In this document: positions 11,821 to 18,738 of the stretch, in pieces
Numbering within the stretch: the first letter of the stretch is position 1
How the letters are laid out: each line of letters begins with the position of its first letter
Source of the DNA: Thiothrix subterranea
GTDB lineage: Bacteria; Pseudomonadota; Gammaproteobacteria; Thiotrichales; Thiotrichaceae
NCBI RefSeq assembly: GCF_016772315.1
Contig: NZ_CP053482.1
Span: forward strand, 1,550,001-1,614,000
Direction of reading: 5' to 3'
Length of the DNA: 64,000 bases
Position numbers and translations under genes: made by a program
Notes under the pieces: generated by a model
Database searches by the model: none
Told to the model about the DNA's origin: nothing
What the model saw: only the letters and a program-made list of their open reading frames with translations

Positions 11821-13446
11821 CTAATAGCGCTCGTCACGCTCATAATCCTCGTCATAACCGTCATTATCGGCGGTCACGGGCTGTTCGCGCTCACGGGCAG
11901 GCGTTGGTGCAGGCTTTTTTGCCGCTTCTGGTTTAGCCTCATGCGCAAACAGCCCCGCGTGCAAACTGTGCGTCATGTCATTGAGCGAGCCACCTTTCAA
12001 ACCCACTTCGCCTAGCAAGCTTTCAATCAACGGCACTTGCGCACGGTAACGCAAAGCGCTGTCCACCACTTGCTCAGCCAAGTTGCTGCCACCGCCGCCA
12101 CTGTTGGCAGTGCCATTGCCTGCATCGCCACCGTTATTGCCGCCACCCGCACCACCGCGCCCGATGGCATTGTTTAAGCCGTCAATGTGCATGATTTTGA
12201 TGCCTTCGATATTTTCCATTGGGCGCACACTTTCGCGAATAATATTCGGCAATTGGCGCACGATTTCCATTTTGACCTGCATCGCAATCTGGTCGTTGGA
12301 AAGCAAGTTAGAAGCTTCGTTCAAGGCTTTCTTGCCCGCCGCTTCCACTTGGTAACGCAATTGCGCAGCCATCGCTGCCATTTTTTCCACATCAGCGTTC
12401 GCTTCGGCAATGATGACTTGGCGACGCGCTTCTTTTTCCGCACTGATAATTTCCACGACACGGGAACGCTCGGCTTCGGCACGTTCGCGAGCAGTACGAA
12501 TTTCTTCGGAAATCTTCTCGAATTCGGCTTTGACCTTATTCGTTTCAATCCATGCGTGTGAGACTTCACGCTCTAACGCGGCTTGTTGCATGTTCATGGA
12601 TTGCTGGGCGCGTTCAATCGAAATCTCTTTGTCGATATTGATTTCTTCGATTTTGCGCTGGGTTTCGGCTTCATTTTCGGCTTTCTGGCGCTTGCGTTCG
12701 TTTTGCGCCACGACTTCCTTGTACTCCATCTCTTCTTTCTTGATGGTGGCTTCAAGGTTGCGCTGCTTAATCGCAACTGCCGTTTCTTGCTCAATATTAT
12801 TGCGGCGCTTGGCGTTATCGGAGGTCACTTGCTCCAAAATACTCAAACCTTTCGCGTCAAAGGCATTGTTGGGGTCGAAATACTTCTTGTCGGTTTGATC
12901 CAGCCCGGTGAGGGATACCGACACCAGTTCCAAACCGTTTTTGTGGAATTCGGCATTCACCGCCTCTTCCACGTTGTGTTCAAACGCGGCGCGTTTTTGG
13001 TGTAATTCCTCTAGCTCCATGCCTGAAGCCACCGAACGTAAGGCGGCAACACACGGCGCTTCAAATACTTCCCTAATCGCCTCTTTATCCAACGTGCGCA
13101 TCCCCAAAGCACGCGCGGCAGTGCTGATGGCTTCCGGGCGAGCTTCTACCCGCAAGAAAAATTCGGCGGTTACATCCACGCGCAGCGGGTCTTTAGTGAC
13201 CAATGCTTGTTCCATTTCGCGGGTAATTTCAATTTTCAGGGTTTGCATATTGATCGGCATCACCTCGTGGATGACGGGCAACACAAACGCACCACTGCCG
13301 AGGATGACTTTTTCCCCGCCCAAGCCAGTGCGCACAAACGCGGTATCTTTTCTGGCGCGTTTATAAAAAGCTGAGAACGCAGCGGCACTTAACAGCGCCA
13401 CTGCTAAAAAACCCAGTGCTGCGTAAAGGTAGGTCGTCCATTCCAT
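11821..13446 (-). CDS. Flotillin-like SPFH-domain protein (YqiK type)
   Basis: The 541-residue protein has one N-terminal membrane helix (about 6-28), an SPFH/band-7 domain (about 32-200: GGEKVILGSGAFVLPVIHEVMPINMQTLKIE), and a long charged flotillin coiled coil (about 220-390) rich in Glu, Lys and Ala. A Gly/Asn-rich linker follows, and the tail is acidic. This order fits bacterial flotillins such as YqiK, which scaffold ordered membrane microdomains. NfeD-type partners often adjoin flotillin genes, but none is present here, as is common for YqiK. It converges on the membrane coiled-coil gene at 10675-11811. Confidence 0.9.
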   Translation of the reverse strand: MEWTTYLYAALGFLAVALLSAAAFSAFYKRARKDTAFVRTGLGGEKVILGSGAFVLPVIHEVMPINMQTLKIEITREMEQALVTKDPLRVDVTAEFFLRVEARPEAISTAARALGMRTLDKEAIREVFEAPCVAALRSVASGMELEELHQKRAAFEHNVEEAVNAEFHKNGLELVSVSLTGLDQTDKKYFDPNNAFDAKGLSILEQVTSDNAKRRNNIEQETAVAIKQRNLEATIKKEEMEYKEVVAQNERKRQKAENEAETQRKIEEINIDKEISIERAQQSMNMQQAALEREVSHAWIETNKVKAEFEKISEEIRTARERAEAERSRVVEIISAEKEARRQVIIAEANADVEKMAAMAAQLRYQVEAAGKKALNEASNLLSNDQIAMQVKMEIVRQLPNIIRESVRPMENIEGIKIMHIDGLNNAIGRGGAGGGNNGGDAGNGTANSGGGGSNLAEQVVDSALRYRAQVPLIESLLGEVGLKGGSLNDMTHSLHAGLFAHEAKPEAAKKPAPTPAREREQPVTADNDGYDEDYERDERY

Positions 13447-13597: not shown

Positions 13598-15565
13598 ATG
13601 ATTTCGACACAGCGCAAGGCACTGATAATAGGGCTGCAAATCAGCATGGCAACGTTGTATGCCAGCGATACATTCGCCGCAACAGGCATCACCGCGCTCA
13701 CGTTGGAACAATTGGAGCAGGAACAGGCAACCCTTATCCAGCGTACACCCGCCTATGTCGACAACCTGATTGATAGCACCACGGCGGAAGACGCAGCTCC
13801 CTCTCCCACTGCTGACACAACACTTGCCGAAGAATCCGCATCCGGCTACCGCACCCTGAACATGGGGATAGACACGCGCCATACCCGCACTGACGCGGGC
13901 GACACGCAAACCCGCCAAGCGTTGAACCTGGATGCTTCACGGCAAACCCGCGACTACGGCACTTTCACACTCGATACCCAAGTTACCCAGCAAAACACCA
14001 GTGCCAGCACGGAAACGCCCCCAGAAACCCAAGAAATCACCGCGACGCTCTACCAAAATGATTGGCTGCTAAACGACGAATGGCAAATGGATAACACTGT
14101 CGGCGTGGTACGTTCCGCCCAAAACAGTTTAATCAGCCAATCCAATAACCTGAGCTTACCGTCACGCACCTACCTTGGCAGCAACAGCCGCATCAGCAAT
14201 GACAAAACTGAAGTACGCCTCATGCACGGCAAAAAAGGTGAAGTGCTCGACAATGGCGATATAACCACCACCGAACAAGCGGTAACGGGTCTGAGCGTCA
14301 CCCATCGCCTCAACGAACAATGGGCGGTGGGCGCACAAGGCTGGCAAGCGCAAGATGAAGACGCGCAACAACACCAGGAAGCCACCCTTGCGGTGCAACA
14401 CACCAACGAATCCGGCAGCCTGCAAACCAAAGCGCAAATGCTCACAAACGAAGCAGGCAGTGGCGCGTGGGTCGACACCGAATACCAGCAAGACCGCTTT
14501 CGCCACCAAGCAGGCGCTTACGCACTCGGCGACGGTCTGACGTGGATGGGTGATGACGTAGCCGATAACACCCAAGGCGCTTACTGGCGCATGGGCTACA
14601 CCCACCCGCGCTACGACACGCATTCGAGCATTGAATGGCAGCAACGCCAAGCCGATGCCGAAACCCATGACACCCAAGAATTACGCCTTAACCAAAGCCT
14701 CAACTACCAATACGACCGCACCACGCGCACCGGCGGGCAACTGAGCCACACCCAAACGCAAGCGGCTGATGACCGCCAACAAACCCAAGGCAGCGTCTTC
14801 GTGTCACGTTCGTGGAGCAGCGGGCAAGACAGCCGCTTACAACTGCGCGTCAGCCACGAACAAGAACCCGACACCACCACCCAAACCCGTGAAATAGACT
14901 ATTCACATCACTGGTTACTGCCCGCAGCCAACGAGCTTTCTTGGCAAATAAATGCCCGCAATGAACAAGACGAAGCCGAAGATCGTAATACTTACCAAAC
15001 AGGGCTAGACTGGCAACATCACCTGAGCAATGGTGATAATGTGGGCGCAAACCTCACCCTAAGCAAAGCCAGCCCGTCCGATAATGACCTTGGTACGCAC
15101 CAAAACTACCGCGTATTTGCCCGCAAGCAACTGAATAGCAAACTGAACCTCGAAGCCAGCATTGAGCAAACACACGACACCGAAGGCAAGCGCGATCAAG
15201 GCGTATCCGTGGCGCTGAATTATCAAGACGGCTGGGGCAAACCGTTAGGGCGGCGTGATGTGCGCAGTGGCGGTATTCGCGGCGTGGTATTTTTCGACGA
15301 AAATAACGACGGGCGGCAGCAGCCCCTAGAAAAGAAAGCTGCTAATATTGAGTTGGTGTTGGATGGGCGTACTCCGGTAACAACTGACCAAAACGGTGAG
15401 TTCGCGTTTCCCCAAGTGGCAACCGGCGCACATGAGCTAGAGGTAGCGTTTAGTAGTATCCCGTTACCGTGGGAACTTTCCGCCGATTTCAACACCAAAG
15501 TAGAGGTAGGATTGCGGGATACCAGCACCCTCGCCATACCACTGGCAAAGGTGACGGATCAATGA
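13598..15565 (+). CDS. Outer-membrane beta-barrel with C-terminal Ig-like domain, possible secretion pore of a pilus-like operon
   Basis: The 655-residue product starts with a signal peptide (MISTQRKALIIGLQISMATLYASDTFA). Residues about 85-555 show alternating hydrophobic/polar strands rich in Gln, Thr and aromatic residues, as in a large outer-membrane barrel. A block at about 185-215 (LSLPSRTYLGSNSRISNDKTEVRLMHGKKGE) looks like a plug or entry segment. The C-terminus (about 560-650, GGIRGVVFFDENNDGRQQPLEKKAANIELVLDG) is an SdrD/carboxypeptidase-regulatory-type Ig-like domain with the DENNDG calcium-binding-like loop. It is the first gene of an operon with subunit-like proteins and a PapD-like chaperone, so it may replace the classical usher, whose PapC-type signatures I do not see. 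Confidence 0.65.
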   Translation: MISTQRKALIIGLQISMATLYASDTFAATGITALTLEQLEQEQATLIQRTPAYVDNLIDSTTAEDAAPSPTADTTLAEESASGYRTLNMGIDTRHTRTDAGDTQTRQALNLDASRQTRDYGTFTLDTQVTQQNTSASTETPPETQEITATLYQNDWLLNDEWQMDNTVGVVRSAQNSLISQSNNLSLPSRTYLGSNSRISNDKTEVRLMHGKKGEVLDNGDITTTEQAVTGLSVTHRLNEQWAVGAQGWQAQDEDAQQHQEATLAVQHTNESGSLQTKAQMLTNEAGSGAWVDTEYQQDRFRHQAGAYALGDGLTWMGDDVADNTQGAYWRMGYTHPRYDTHSSIEWQQRQADAETHDTQELRLNQSLNYQYDRTTRTGGQLSHTQTQAADDRQQTQGSVFVSRSWSSGQDSRLQLRVSHEQEPDTTTQTREIDYSHHWLLPAANELSWQINARNEQDEAEDRNTYQTGLDWQHHLSNGDNVGANLTLSKASPSDNDLGTHQNYRVFARKQLNSKLNLEASIEQTHDTEGKRDQGVSVALNYQDGWGKPLGRRDVRSGGIRGVVFFDENNDGRQQPLEKKAANIELVLDGRTPVTTDQNGEFAFPQVATGAHELEVAFSSIPLPWELSADFNTKVEVGLRDTSTLAIPLAKVTDQ

Positions 15566-15615
15566 CCCAATCCCCAACATTTTCAATCAATAATAACAGT
15601 AAGAGTTTACTAAAC

Positions 15616-16269
15616 ATGAAATTACTAAAACCTAGCCTGCTGGCTTCCAGCGCGTTATTGCTCGCCTTAACCGGCACTGCCTTCGGCGAAGCGGGCATTT
15701 CCTCCAAAGTAGGCGCAGCGCCTGATTCCGTCACTGCCAACGTCAACTTCAAAATCAAAGTACCCGAAATTATTATCTTGCGCGTGGGCGATTGGGGAAA
15801 CACCAAAAATACCCTTATCTGGGATTATGCCTTTGGTTCAGGGATAGCCGAGACCAGTAACACTGATGCAACCTCTGCTCAATGGGGCAAAATTACTGCC
15901 GACGCAGTAGATCCACAAAATGCGAACAGTGATAATGAAAGTGCTTCCGATAAAGCTGGGGATGGTATCCTCAAAGTTGCCGCTTTTAGCAATACGGGCG
16001 ATGTCCGCCTCACCTCTGCCATCGTCACGGATTTTACCGCCGTTACCGCTGGCTTCAATAAGCCGTCTTTAAGCGAAATTAGCGCAACCGATGGCGGTAG
16101 TATTGCACACACCGCACTCAATGGGTTTACAGGTGGCACGGTTGATCTAACCAATACGGCGGGTTTGGTAAAACTAACGGATGCTTGGCAATATACCTAC
16201 ACACCAACCAACAACCCAGCGGCGGGTGAATACAACGCTGAAGTCAAATACACGTTGGCTAATATTTAA
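15616..16269 (+). CDS. Secreted pilin-like subunit, probably major
   Basis: The start at 15616 (MKLLKPSLLASSALLLALTGTAFGEAG) gives a clean signal peptide; an alternative ATG at 15562 overlaps the upstream stop as ATGA but would bury the signal. The mature protein of about 190 residues is beta-rich with few charged residues and no cysteine. Its blocks VNFKIKVPEIIILRVGDWGNT near the N-terminus and DAWQYTYTPTNNPAAGEYNAEV near the end recur in the gene at 17712 (VKLTVPAFLFLQVGNANQT; AVWQYTYTNSALPAAGTYQG), so the two are paralogues. It precedes a strong hairpin and a chaperone gene. A subunit of a surface fibre is the best guess. Confidence 0.6.
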   Translation: MKLLKPSLLASSALLLALTGTAFGEAGISSKVGAAPDSVTANVNFKIKVPEIIILRVGDWGNTKNTLIWDYAFGSGIAETSNTDATSAQWGKITADAVDPQNANSDNESASDKAGDGILKVAAFSNTGDVRLTSAIVTDFTAVTAGFNKPSLSEISATDGGSIAHTALNGFTGGTVDLTNTAGLVKLTDAWQYTYTPTNNPAAGEYNAEVKYTLANI

Positions 16270-16281
16270 ATAAGATGGCGC

Positions 16282-16308
16282 AAGGTTCGGCAATAGCAGC
16301 CGAACCTT
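16282..16308 (+). promoter_or_regulatory. Intercistronic hairpin in the pilus-like operon
   Basis: A perfect 10-bp stem AAGGTTCGGC/GCCGAACCTT with a 7-base loop lies 12 bp after the subunit gene and 28 bp before the chaperone gene. It has no T-run, so it is more likely an mRNA stabiliser or partial terminator than a true operon end. In fimbrial operons such hairpins raise expression of the subunit over the assembly proteins. Confidence 0.65.
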
Positions 16309-16336
16309 TGCCAGATTGTCACAACAGGGGCTAAAC

Positions 16337-17122
16337 ATGAGAAACATCACCAGCAAACTTTTTTTCAGTTTGCTAACGTTAGGTATGGCAACCAACGCAT
16401 CTGCCAGCGGCTTTTCAGCGGCTGCCAGCCCGCCACGCTATGAACTTTCCGCCACTGCTGGGCAAAAAGTATCGCAAGTGCTGGAAATTTATAACGTCGG
16501 CAATGCCAACGAACAATACACCGTCAAAACCAACGACTGGCAACTCACTGGCGAAAAACTCACGTTTCACGACGAACTCCTCCCCAACAGTTGCCGCGAA
16601 TGGGTCAAGCTCGAACGCCACAAAGTTACCGTCAACCGTGGCGACAAACGCCCGATGCGTTTTGAAGTCGATGTTCCCGCTGGCACGCCTGCGCAAGAAT
16701 GCCGCTTTGCCCTCATGGTCGAAGGCACGACCCCCGCCCCCAACCAAATTGCCGACAATATCAACCTGCCGGTCAACGGGCGTTTAGCCGTCATCGTGTA
16801 TTTGGCTATCGGCGGCGCAGAACCCGCCCTCACGGTTGCCAACCTGCAAATGTCCGGCAAAATCCCTGCTCTCAAAGTCAGCAATAGCGGCACGGCACAC
16901 GGTCGTCTGCAAGGCGTACTCGCAGGCACGGACAGCAGCGGCAAAGCCATCGACTTTTCGGTGTCCAGCACCCCGATTATGGCGGGCGAATCGCGCTTAC
17001 TCCCGCTCACCCCGCACCTTGGCGAAAAACACCTTGACCCGAAAACGATCAAATACCCCGTCAAGCTCAAAGGTCAGCTTTACTGGGAAAAAGGCGCGTT
17101 TGCGATTGAACAACAACTGTGA
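16337..17122 (+). CDS. PapD-like periplasmic chaperone
   Basis: The start at 16337 (MRNITSKLFFSLLTLGMATNASASG) follows CAGGGG and gives a signal peptide; 261 residues in all. The mature part has two Ig-like halves: residues about 30-145 (SPPRYELSATAGQKVSQVLEIYNVGNANEQYTVKTNDW...PMRFEVDVPAGTPAQECRFALMVEG) resemble the N-terminal domain of pilus chaperones, with a proline-flanked start, the F-x-V/P-AGTP loop and the strand before the domain break. The second half ends in a strand LKGQLYWEKGAFAIEQQL. A disulfide may link Cys in LPNSCREW and QECRF. It probably binds the operon's secreted subunits in the periplasm. Confidence 0.7.
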   Translation: MRNITSKLFFSLLTLGMATNASASGFSAAASPPRYELSATAGQKVSQVLEIYNVGNANEQYTVKTNDWQLTGEKLTFHDELLPNSCREWVKLERHKVTVNRGDKRPMRFEVDVPAGTPAQECRFALMVEGTTPAPNQIADNINLPVNGRLAVIVYLAIGGAEPALTVANLQMSGKIPALKVSNSGTAHGRLQGVLAGTDSSGKAIDFSVSSTPIMAGESRLLPLTPHLGEKHLDPKTIKYPVKLKGQLYWEKGAFAIEQQL

Positions 17123-17133
17123 GGATCTCGGCA

Positions 17134-17715
17134 ATGCCCTATTTACCCAGCCATCACTACCGAGCCGCTTTGGTGCTCCTCGCCCTGCTCCCCATGCCCA
17201 GCGCGTGGGCGCAATGTTGGCCGGAAAATACCGATAACGGCAAAGCCGATTACTACCTCGTGAATGGTGCTATTAACCAACCCATTCCCGAAATTGTGTT
17301 TGACCTCCCCGGCAATAGCCTTGGCACAGGTGGGCGGATTGTCTCCACCACCGTCAACAACCGTGGCAATAACAACACCTTGGCAAACCATGTACGCTTC
17401 CGCCTCAGTGTCAGCAACAAAACGACTAAACGTGTCGTGATGTCTGCGAACTCCGCCACGCCCCTCACTTGCACCACGTGTAGCAGCAGCGTGACGATTC
17501 CGTTTAGCAAAATTGGCTGGCAGGAAAACCCCACCAATGAAACCAAAGGCAGCGTGCCAGCCGATGGGCAATTCAATAACGGCTCACAAACATGGATCAC
17601 TGCCAACCCCAAAGACGATTCGATTTTCAACCTGCAATTTGATTTTTTAAATGACACCGTTTACCCAGCAGGCACATACACCGGCGAATTCCGCACACGG
17701 GGAACCCCACAATGA
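17134..17715 (+). CDS. Secreted subunit-like protein with CxxC
   Basis: I place the start at ATG 17134 (MPYLPSHHYRAALVLLALLPMPSAWAQ), with GAGGA (17121-17125) as ribosome-binding site; a GTG at 17119 would overlap the chaperone stop. After the signal peptide (cleavage after AWA) come about 165 beta-rich residues with CTTC around mature mid-length, many Asn and Thr, and an ending (PAGTYTGEFRTRGTPQ) that resembles the final beta strand of pilin-like proteins. It overlaps the next gene by 4 bp. No known family is recognised; an adhesin or minor subunit is plausible. Confidence 0.6.
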   Translation: MPYLPSHHYRAALVLLALLPMPSAWAQCWPENTDNGKADYYLVNGAINQPIPEIVFDLPGNSLGTGGRIVSTTVNNRGNNNTLANHVRFRLSVSNKTTKRVVMSANSATPLTCTTCSSSVTIPFSKIGWQENPTNETKGSVPADGQFNNGSQTWITANPKDDSIFNLQFDFLNDTVYPAGTYTGEFRTRGTPQ

Positions 17716-18311
17716 CACGCTACACTGCTTACTTGATACTCTTGACTATGCTGATTCCGATGAGTGCGGATGCGGTTCGGGTTGATTGTGAAGATAACTC
17801 CACCGCTGAATTGCCCGTAAAAGTAAAACTTACCGTCCCCGCGTTCCTGTTTTTACAGGTCGGCAATGCGAATCAAACCGCAGAGCTTACTTACAACGTT
17901 GGTACTAATCTGTCGTCAGGGGCATACACAGGGGCAATCCCACCGGCAGGCGAAAGTGGGCTTGCCCCCAGCAGCATTACCGGCAGCGATGTGAGTAACG
18001 GGGTGAATGTGGCGGTACGCGCCAATTGTGGGCAGGTAAAAATTGCTTACAGCGTGACCGACAACAACGGGCTTGCCAATGGTCAAGGGCAATTCATTCC
18101 TTATGAAACGTTGCAAACCAGCACCTCGGATAGCGGCTTGCCTGCCCCTACTTTGCGCAATGCAACAAACGCGGAAAGTCTGGTCAGCACCAGCAGTTAT
18201 GGCTCGGTAACAGATCGCAAGGCGGTTTGGCAATACACCTACACCAACAGCGCTTTGCCCGCAGCGGGTACGTATCAAGGCACCGTGACGTATCAGGCAA
18301 GCTGTCTGTAA
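17712..18311 (+). CDS. Secreted pilin-like subunit paralogue
   Basis: The 199-residue product begins with a signal peptide (MTRYTAYLILLTMLIPMSADAV) and overlaps the preceding gene by ATGA, so it is translationally coupled. It shares both ends with the subunit at 15616: VKLTVPAFLFLQVG early and AVWQYTYTNSALPAAGTYQGTVTY late. Unlike that paralogue it has cysteines (RVDCEDN, RANCGQV, QASCL) that could form disulfides, one at the very end. It is probably a minor or tip subunit. Confidence 0.6.
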   Translation: MTRYTAYLILLTMLIPMSADAVRVDCEDNSTAELPVKVKLTVPAFLFLQVGNANQTAELTYNVGTNLSSGAYTGAIPPAGESGLAPSSITGSDVSNGVNVAVRANCGQVKIAYSVTDNNGLANGQGQFIPYETLQTSTSDSGLPAPTLRNATNAESLVSTSSYGSVTDRKAVWQYTYTNSALPAAGTYQGTVTYQASCL

Positions 18312-18423
18312 GACTGCCATTGATCGGTTCAATTATTGCTAAATATCAATATTAACGTTATGAATGGGCGTAGACTATCCTTAATGCTTTCTGAACACAG
18401 AAGCGCACTTGAGGAGTATTGTC

Positions 18424-18738
18424 ATGAATCACCTCGCCCACCTCGGCTTAACGTCTGCCGCACTGTTACTCGCCCTGAGTGCTACTTTCACAAGCGAATA
18501 CGCCAGCGCGGAAGCCACACTTAATCAGCCCGTCCATGTCCACTTCACCATCAAGGTGCAAGAAGTGCTAACCGTCAACCTGCGCGGCAATCACTTGGAC
18601 GTTAGCAGTAACAATGGCAATATCTTGCTGGTCAACGACAATCTCAACACCGCCAATATGTTGCCACTGTCAGGCAACACCCACGCCAACGTCGTGGTGC
18701 GCAGTCAAGACGGCGGTTTCGTGGTGGCAACTCCCTAA
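18424..18738 (+). CDS. Short secreted subunit-like protein
   Basis: The start at 18424 (MNHLAHLGLTSAALLLALSATFTSEYASA) follows GAGGAG and carries a signal peptide. The 104-residue product keeps the operon's early motif (VHVHFTIKVQEVLTVNLRGNHLDV) but ends after about 75 mature residues (GGFVVATP), so it is about half the size of its paralogues. It may be a truncated paralogue or a capping subunit. It is 112 bp after the preceding gene, with no obvious terminator in between, so membership in the operon is likely but not certain. Confidence 0.5.
   Translation: MNHLAHLGLTSAALLLALSATFTSEYASAEATLNQPVHVHFTIKVQEVLTVNLRGNHLDVSSNNGNILLVNDNLNTANMLPLSGNTHANVVVRSQDGGFVVATP

Follow-up and report, generated by a model that had tools for sequence, protein, structure and literature searches.

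Here we describe a six-gene operon of Thiothrix subterranea, located on the forward strand at positions 13598-18738 of a 64,000-nucleotide stretch of DNA (the window; contig NZ_CP053482.1, positions 1,550,001 to 1,614,000). The operon probably encodes a divergent, minimal chaperone-usher system, and its lineage is not recognised by the family libraries searched. Its genes, all on the + strand, code for an usher-like outer-membrane barrel of 655 residues (13598..15565), a pilin-like subunit A of 217 residues (15616..16269), a periplasmic two-domain chaperone of 261 residues (16337..17122), a cysteine-bearing subunit B of 193 residues (17134..17715, alternative GTG start at 17119), a subunit C of 199 residues (17712..18311) and a small secreted protein of 104 residues (18424..18738, alternative TTG start at 18409). 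The six open reading frames (ORFs) show operon-like spacing with a 4-base overlap between the genes for subunits B and C, and all six proteins carry signal peptides as judged by eye.

None of the six proteins reaches a Pfam or NCBIfam cut-off, and single-sequence searches of PDB, Pfam and NCBIfam returned nothing useful. Weak sub-threshold Pfam traces occur for SdrD_B in the barrel C-terminus and for fn3_5/WxLIP_PGBD in the chaperone. A preliminary description of the DNA had proposed a six-gene operon with a 655-residue barrel and a two-domain chaperone, and all the ORFs are indeed present on one strand. It had further suggested a little-known chaperone-usher variant, which is now the best-supported reading in view of the chaperone homology, the glycine register of the subunits and the C-terminal alignment of the barrel with ushers.

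Chaperone and subunits

Profile comparison identifies the chaperone as a homologue of chaperone-usher chaperones over both domains. With hhalign the chaperone profile scored 95.6% (P 1.3e-8, 192 columns, both domains) against the chaperones of archaic chaperone-usher systems and 98.8% against those of DUF4402-type systems, with reversed controls at 0.1-2%. The archaic chaperones were picked by gene position, a phmmer search with FimC having missed them, and profile alignments to EcpB, FimC and the DUF4402-type chaperones bore out the choice. The same profile also finds chaperones beside usher-like genes in two further loci (L073 and L074). The L074 chaperone lies above the Pfam PapD_N cut-off, which is not reached by the window chaperone family (10 members).

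An AlphaFold2 (AF2) model of the chaperone was built from two sequences and has a predicted local distance difference test score (pLDDT) of 57, with about 80 in the second domain. Foldseek placed the CupB2 chaperone first (E 4.4e-5), followed by YadV, WxLIP, CfaA and CsuC, and VIA ranked WxLIP (Z 9.0) before YadV (8.4), EcpB (8.3) and CupB2 (7.8). The matches span both domains and include FimC; their middling Z-scores may be taken as support, not as proof. The last predicted element of the chaperone is a beta-strand ending at residue 260, and no hydrophobic helix follows. In T. caldifontis, the nearest named relative found, it is 93% identical. The chaperone at L037:9847-10666 (G013) is split into two overlapping ORFs, by a frameshift or a sequencing error.

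An iterated profile search places subunits A, B and C in a single paralogous family of 58 members, with two to four at most loci. Subunit B, although present as a cysteine-bearing protein as first described, is thus not the separate type it was taken for, and it differs from A and C in a shorter N-terminal extension. A shared early motif, K-x-x-V-x5-L-x-V-G, had been ascribed to at least three proteins; it is exact in subunit A (KIKVPEIIILRVG) and subunit C (KLTVPAFLFLQVG), but degenerate in the small protein, which makes a count of three generous. The WQYTYT...PAAGxY ending reported for two proteins was found in A and C, in the latter as WQYTYT...PAAGTYQGTVTY.

The C-terminal register of the family matches that of known pilins. 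Glycine occupies position -14 from the stop in 46 of 50 non-redundant subunits (background 10%), including A (codon at 16225-16227), B and C, and FimA, FimF, FimG and FimH all have glycine at -14 in the same register. An aromatic residue stands at -6 in 48 of the 50. By eye, two types can be told apart by the number of residues before the conserved xVG, namely about 30 in A and C and about 18 in B and its counterparts. Such lengths would fit major pilins that carry a donor segment in the case of A and C, and a tip subunit lacking it in that of B. From the YxxxVxYxL ending the subunits were also considered as WxL domains; this assignment was rejected, with no Pfam WxL match in 26 subunits and none in PDB.

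The usher-like barrel

The barrel protein consists of a signal peptide, a short conserved N-terminal tail, a barrel region of about 470 residues and one C-terminal domain (residues 556-655, 15263..15562). It most likely represents an usher in strongly diverged, reduced form. Aligned with 27-28 archaic-type ushers, the barrel family reached 96.7% in hhalign (P 3.8e-10) over 211 columns, which cover the last barrel strands and the first C-terminal domain of ushers (CTD1). In the same test the bona fide usher EcpC, the positive control, scored 93.4%, and the negative controls stayed at 3.1% (LptD) and 1.6% (reversed). Against eight ushers of the sampled genomes together with FimD the score was 95% with a colinear alignment (reversed 4%, LptD 0.6%), and the usher CTD1 profile alone recovered the window barrel family at 94.6% (P 7e-8). 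The relationship to ushers was found mainly through CTD1, for which the profile alignments show homology; the barrel alone reached 25%, and its N-terminal half has a significant match nowhere.

The C-terminal domain requires a closer look, as it also resembles a generic repeat. A DENNDG domain had been described at this end of the barrel; it is present, with a weak SdrD_B match (E 6e-4, residues 563-617). The first half of the domain is SdrD_B-like (FDENNDG), and its first 68 columns match a control profile of generic SdrD_B repeats at 99%; the second half (...PLPW...IPL) matches usher CTD1. The score of the whole domain being partly generic, we rely on its last 50 residues and on the comparison with archaic ushers, where SdrD_B alone fails: generic SdrD_B scored 12.8% against these ushers and the family domain 93.4%. 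The last 50 residues lie outside SdrD_B (0.3%) and match usher CTD1 in register at 4-68%, depending on the usher set.

A search with the barrel across the phylum mostly returned SdrD_B repeats of giant proteins. Among such sequences, a 5469-residue open frame of the same genome (G000:C1 ~1035700-1038700) contains several SdrD_B-like domains, and frames of about 900-2000 residues from one family of another Pseudomonadota class (L106-L120) carry a domain very like that of the barrel C-terminus (FIDENMN..TDKxGRYHF..GTHVVQMD).

Full-size ushers with a CarboxypepD_reg tail from other Pseudomonadota (L123, L129 and L131), together with the usher of L074, are the closest relatives found. They align with canonical ushers at 98.3% over 680 columns and with the window family at 97.7%, and on these alignments they form a bridge between the two. 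Their CTD1 shares the motif DxNRDGxRQADE with the window barrel, and their chaperones are those matched at 98.8%. They differ in being full-size (905-937 residues) and in having a plug and a CarboxypepD_reg domain as second C-terminal domain (CTD2); the subunits of L129 are DUF4402 proteins, and those of the others have no family assignment.

The preliminary description had seen no PapC-type usher signatures, and as far as Pfam is concerned this was right: Usher, PapC_N, PapC_C, TcfC and CooC are absent from ten of ten family members, and Pfam Usher matches nowhere in the genome. It had also placed an atypical barrel instead of an usher. Atypical and unrecognised by Pfam it is, but the alignments point to a reduced usher and not to an unrelated replacement.

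In known ushers the N-terminal domain catches chaperone-subunit complexes and the plug gates the pore. For these parts, profiles gave 0.4% (N-terminal domain) and 0.3% (CTD2) against the window family, and the positive controls scored low as well. The plug profile gave 0.4% for the window family, 78.5% for DUF4402-type ushers and only 1.2% for EcpC, so that this test misses remote plugs. Since some positive controls fail too, the length of the protein is the stronger argument. About 55 residues separate the signal peptide from the first barrel strand, about 470 precede CTD1, and the protein stops at CTD1. The FimD barrel without its plug has about 440 residues, and a length of about 470 is compatible with 24 strands if the plug is absent. 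The 655 residues would leave little room for an N-terminal domain, a plug and a CTD2, and the length argues against a plug in particular; both the strand number and the lack of a plug are putative. Directly ahead of the barrel lies the motif YVDNLI (YxDxx[I/M], 13754..13771), which is kept in the alignment of 23 of 23 family members. Two relatives (L063 and L069) have longer N-terminal regions, with roughly 180-220 extra residues.

Proposed assembly and alternative explanations

In the proposed mechanism A, B and C would be incomplete Ig-like pilins, each capped in the periplasm by the chaperone, which would lend a strand, with the C-terminal subunit strand around Gly -14 sitting in the chaperone cleft. 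Chaperone-subunit complexes would then dock at the periplasmic side of the 655-residue minimal usher, and donor-strand exchange would polymerise the subunits through the barrel pore, giving a surface fibre that may serve adhesion. It seems that the barrel manages without a classical N-terminal docking domain, a plug and a second C-terminal domain. Candidate docking sites are the YxDxx[I/M] tail, which is conserved, and the one C-terminal domain, which resembles CTD1.

Several results weigh against a chaperone-usher system. Classical ushers scored only 22% with the barrel family, and the barrel without its C-terminal domain scored 10-32% against ushers, up to 50-56% in some sets. The signal of the C-terminal domain is partly that of generic SdrD_B, an AF2 model of the barrel from two sequences had a pLDDT of 27 and was not used, and the chaperone model reaches only middling confidence. 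A ten-sequence chaperone profile has WxLIP as its sole significant match in PDB (9i25_C and 9i1y_A, E 2.6e-4), with none from the PapD family. No known pilin family of Pfam or PDB matches the subunits; SCPU (PF05229) in particular was found neither in members of the subunit family (hhalign 1.8%) nor elsewhere in the genome. The subunits also have no penultimate aromatic residue, position -2 being mostly A, T, N, I or M. As this residue is a mark of classical pilins only, its absence argues against a place in the classical branch of chaperone-usher systems.

WxLIP is the nearest relative that sequence profiles find for the chaperone in PDB. This match, together with the Pfam WxLIP_PGBD model touched by six of the ten chaperone family members and the first rank of WxLIP in VIA, would fit a Gram-negative counterpart of the WxL/WxLIP platforms of Firmicutes (PMC10599100; PDB 9i25, 9i1y). 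In those platforms, the prediction is that WxL is completed by a strand from WxLIP (PMC10599100). The two-domain protein would then be no transient chaperone but would stay with the subunits permanently, completing them and anchoring them on a surface, and the barrel would merely export or display them, with no fibre polymerised. The fold is, however, common to WxLIP and to chaperone-usher chaperones, and archaic chaperones, too, give a strong profile match across the two domains. WxLIP has a C-terminal transmembrane helix, which the window chaperone lacks, and the WxL platforms have neither an outer membrane nor an usher. With no WxL match of the subunits in Pfam or PDB, and with usher CTD1 and the pilin Gly -14 pointing to chaperone-usher assembly, we regard this explanation as unlikely. 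As a second alternative, the barrel may not descend from ushers: an operon of chaperone and subunits would have recruited an ordinary barrel of the outer membrane that carries SdrD_B at its C-terminus. This would account for the SdrD_B likeness of the first 68 columns, for the weak scores of the barrel part alone and for the lack of Pfam Usher in every member. The failure of SdrD_B to match archaic ushers, the register of the last 50 residues with CTD1, the colinear alignment through the last barrel strands and a score on a par with EcpC speak against such a recruitment, which we also consider unlikely.

As a chaperone-usher system, the operon resembles the archaic (sigma) pili such as Csu and CupE (PMC9452303, PMC10104325), with which it shares the chaperone homologous over both domains, the aligned CTD1 and last barrel strands, and, in the subunits, a final GxYxxxVT strand. 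It departs from them in its usher of 655 residues versus about 800-850, with no N-terminal domain, plug or CTD2 detected, and in its non-SCPU subunits. The E. coli common pilus is comparable in that EcpC is about as remote from archaic ushers as the window barrel is and in that EcpB is among the best chaperone folds; EcpC itself scores 0.8% against the window barrel, and the subunits differ. It is conceivable, if rather doubtful, that the operon represents a separate chaperone-usher lineage, with an usher that has no N-terminal docking domain and plug and a chaperone standing between chaperone-usher chaperones and WxLIP, so that both strand-lending surface systems would join in one superfamily.

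Distribution, accessory genes and significance

Barrel and chaperone are found in the same Thiothrix-family genomes, in which two operon types occur: barrel-A-chaperone-B-C-small protein, as in the window, and barrel-A-B-'LDDSL' protein-chaperone-C. When the whole class was searched, 16 of 369 gammaproteobacterial genomes proved to have the chaperone, two of them with a weak match only. At every strong chaperone match outside the Thiothrix family, counted on contigs of sufficient reach, barrel and chaperone are no more than a few kb apart and are accompanied by 2-4 subunit genes. The recurrence of the gene set, proposed earlier as a check, was borne out for barrel, chaperone and subunits in about 20 further gammaproteobacterial loci. 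The set recurs across several other gammaproteobacterial families, more than by chance, and sequence comparison establishes the genes as a set conserved together.

The small protein of the window, an accessory specific to its clade, shows a weak likeness to the subunits that is limited to their N-terminal strand segment. Short secreted proteins of about 100-140 residues also lie near other operons (L040:13198-13608, L041:5421-5759, L060:6077-6388 and L060:7703-8125). In all these proteins the likeness to subunits is confined to the signal peptide and the first strand segment, being strong in L040 and L041 and weak in the window; they could act as fibre cap or terminator. A secreted protein of 160-170 residues starting with ERLDDS(L/A)SP adjoins the chaperone in most loci (L036, L037, L038, L039, L040, L041, L060-L064, L066, L067, L069, L070 and L127) and is absent from the window's clade. 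Upstream of the operon a divergent flotillin-like (SPFH) gene, recognised by eye, occupies 11821-13446 on the - strand.

DUF4402 occurs only rarely among the genomes sampled. The locus L073 (G274:C13) combines an 881-residue CarboxypepD_reg-tailed usher-like protein with a chaperone and a 180-residue subunit; the large protein matches the usher plug region and not Pfam Usher, and is probably another unlabelled usher type. A search of open-licence papers for DUF4402 with ushers, WxL with donor strands and plug-less divergent ushers found nothing relevant, which is weak evidence of novelty.

If subunits are assembled with neither N-terminal domain nor plug, as appears to be the case, this family would reveal which usher parts are essential. 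Several gammaproteobacterial families, including that of Thiothrix, a filamentous sulfur bacterium, would also gain a fibre system that had gone unrecognised, in genomes for which surveys based on Pfam list no usher. The link between its chaperone and WxLIP makes a common origin of Gram-positive WxL platforms and Gram-negative pili testable.

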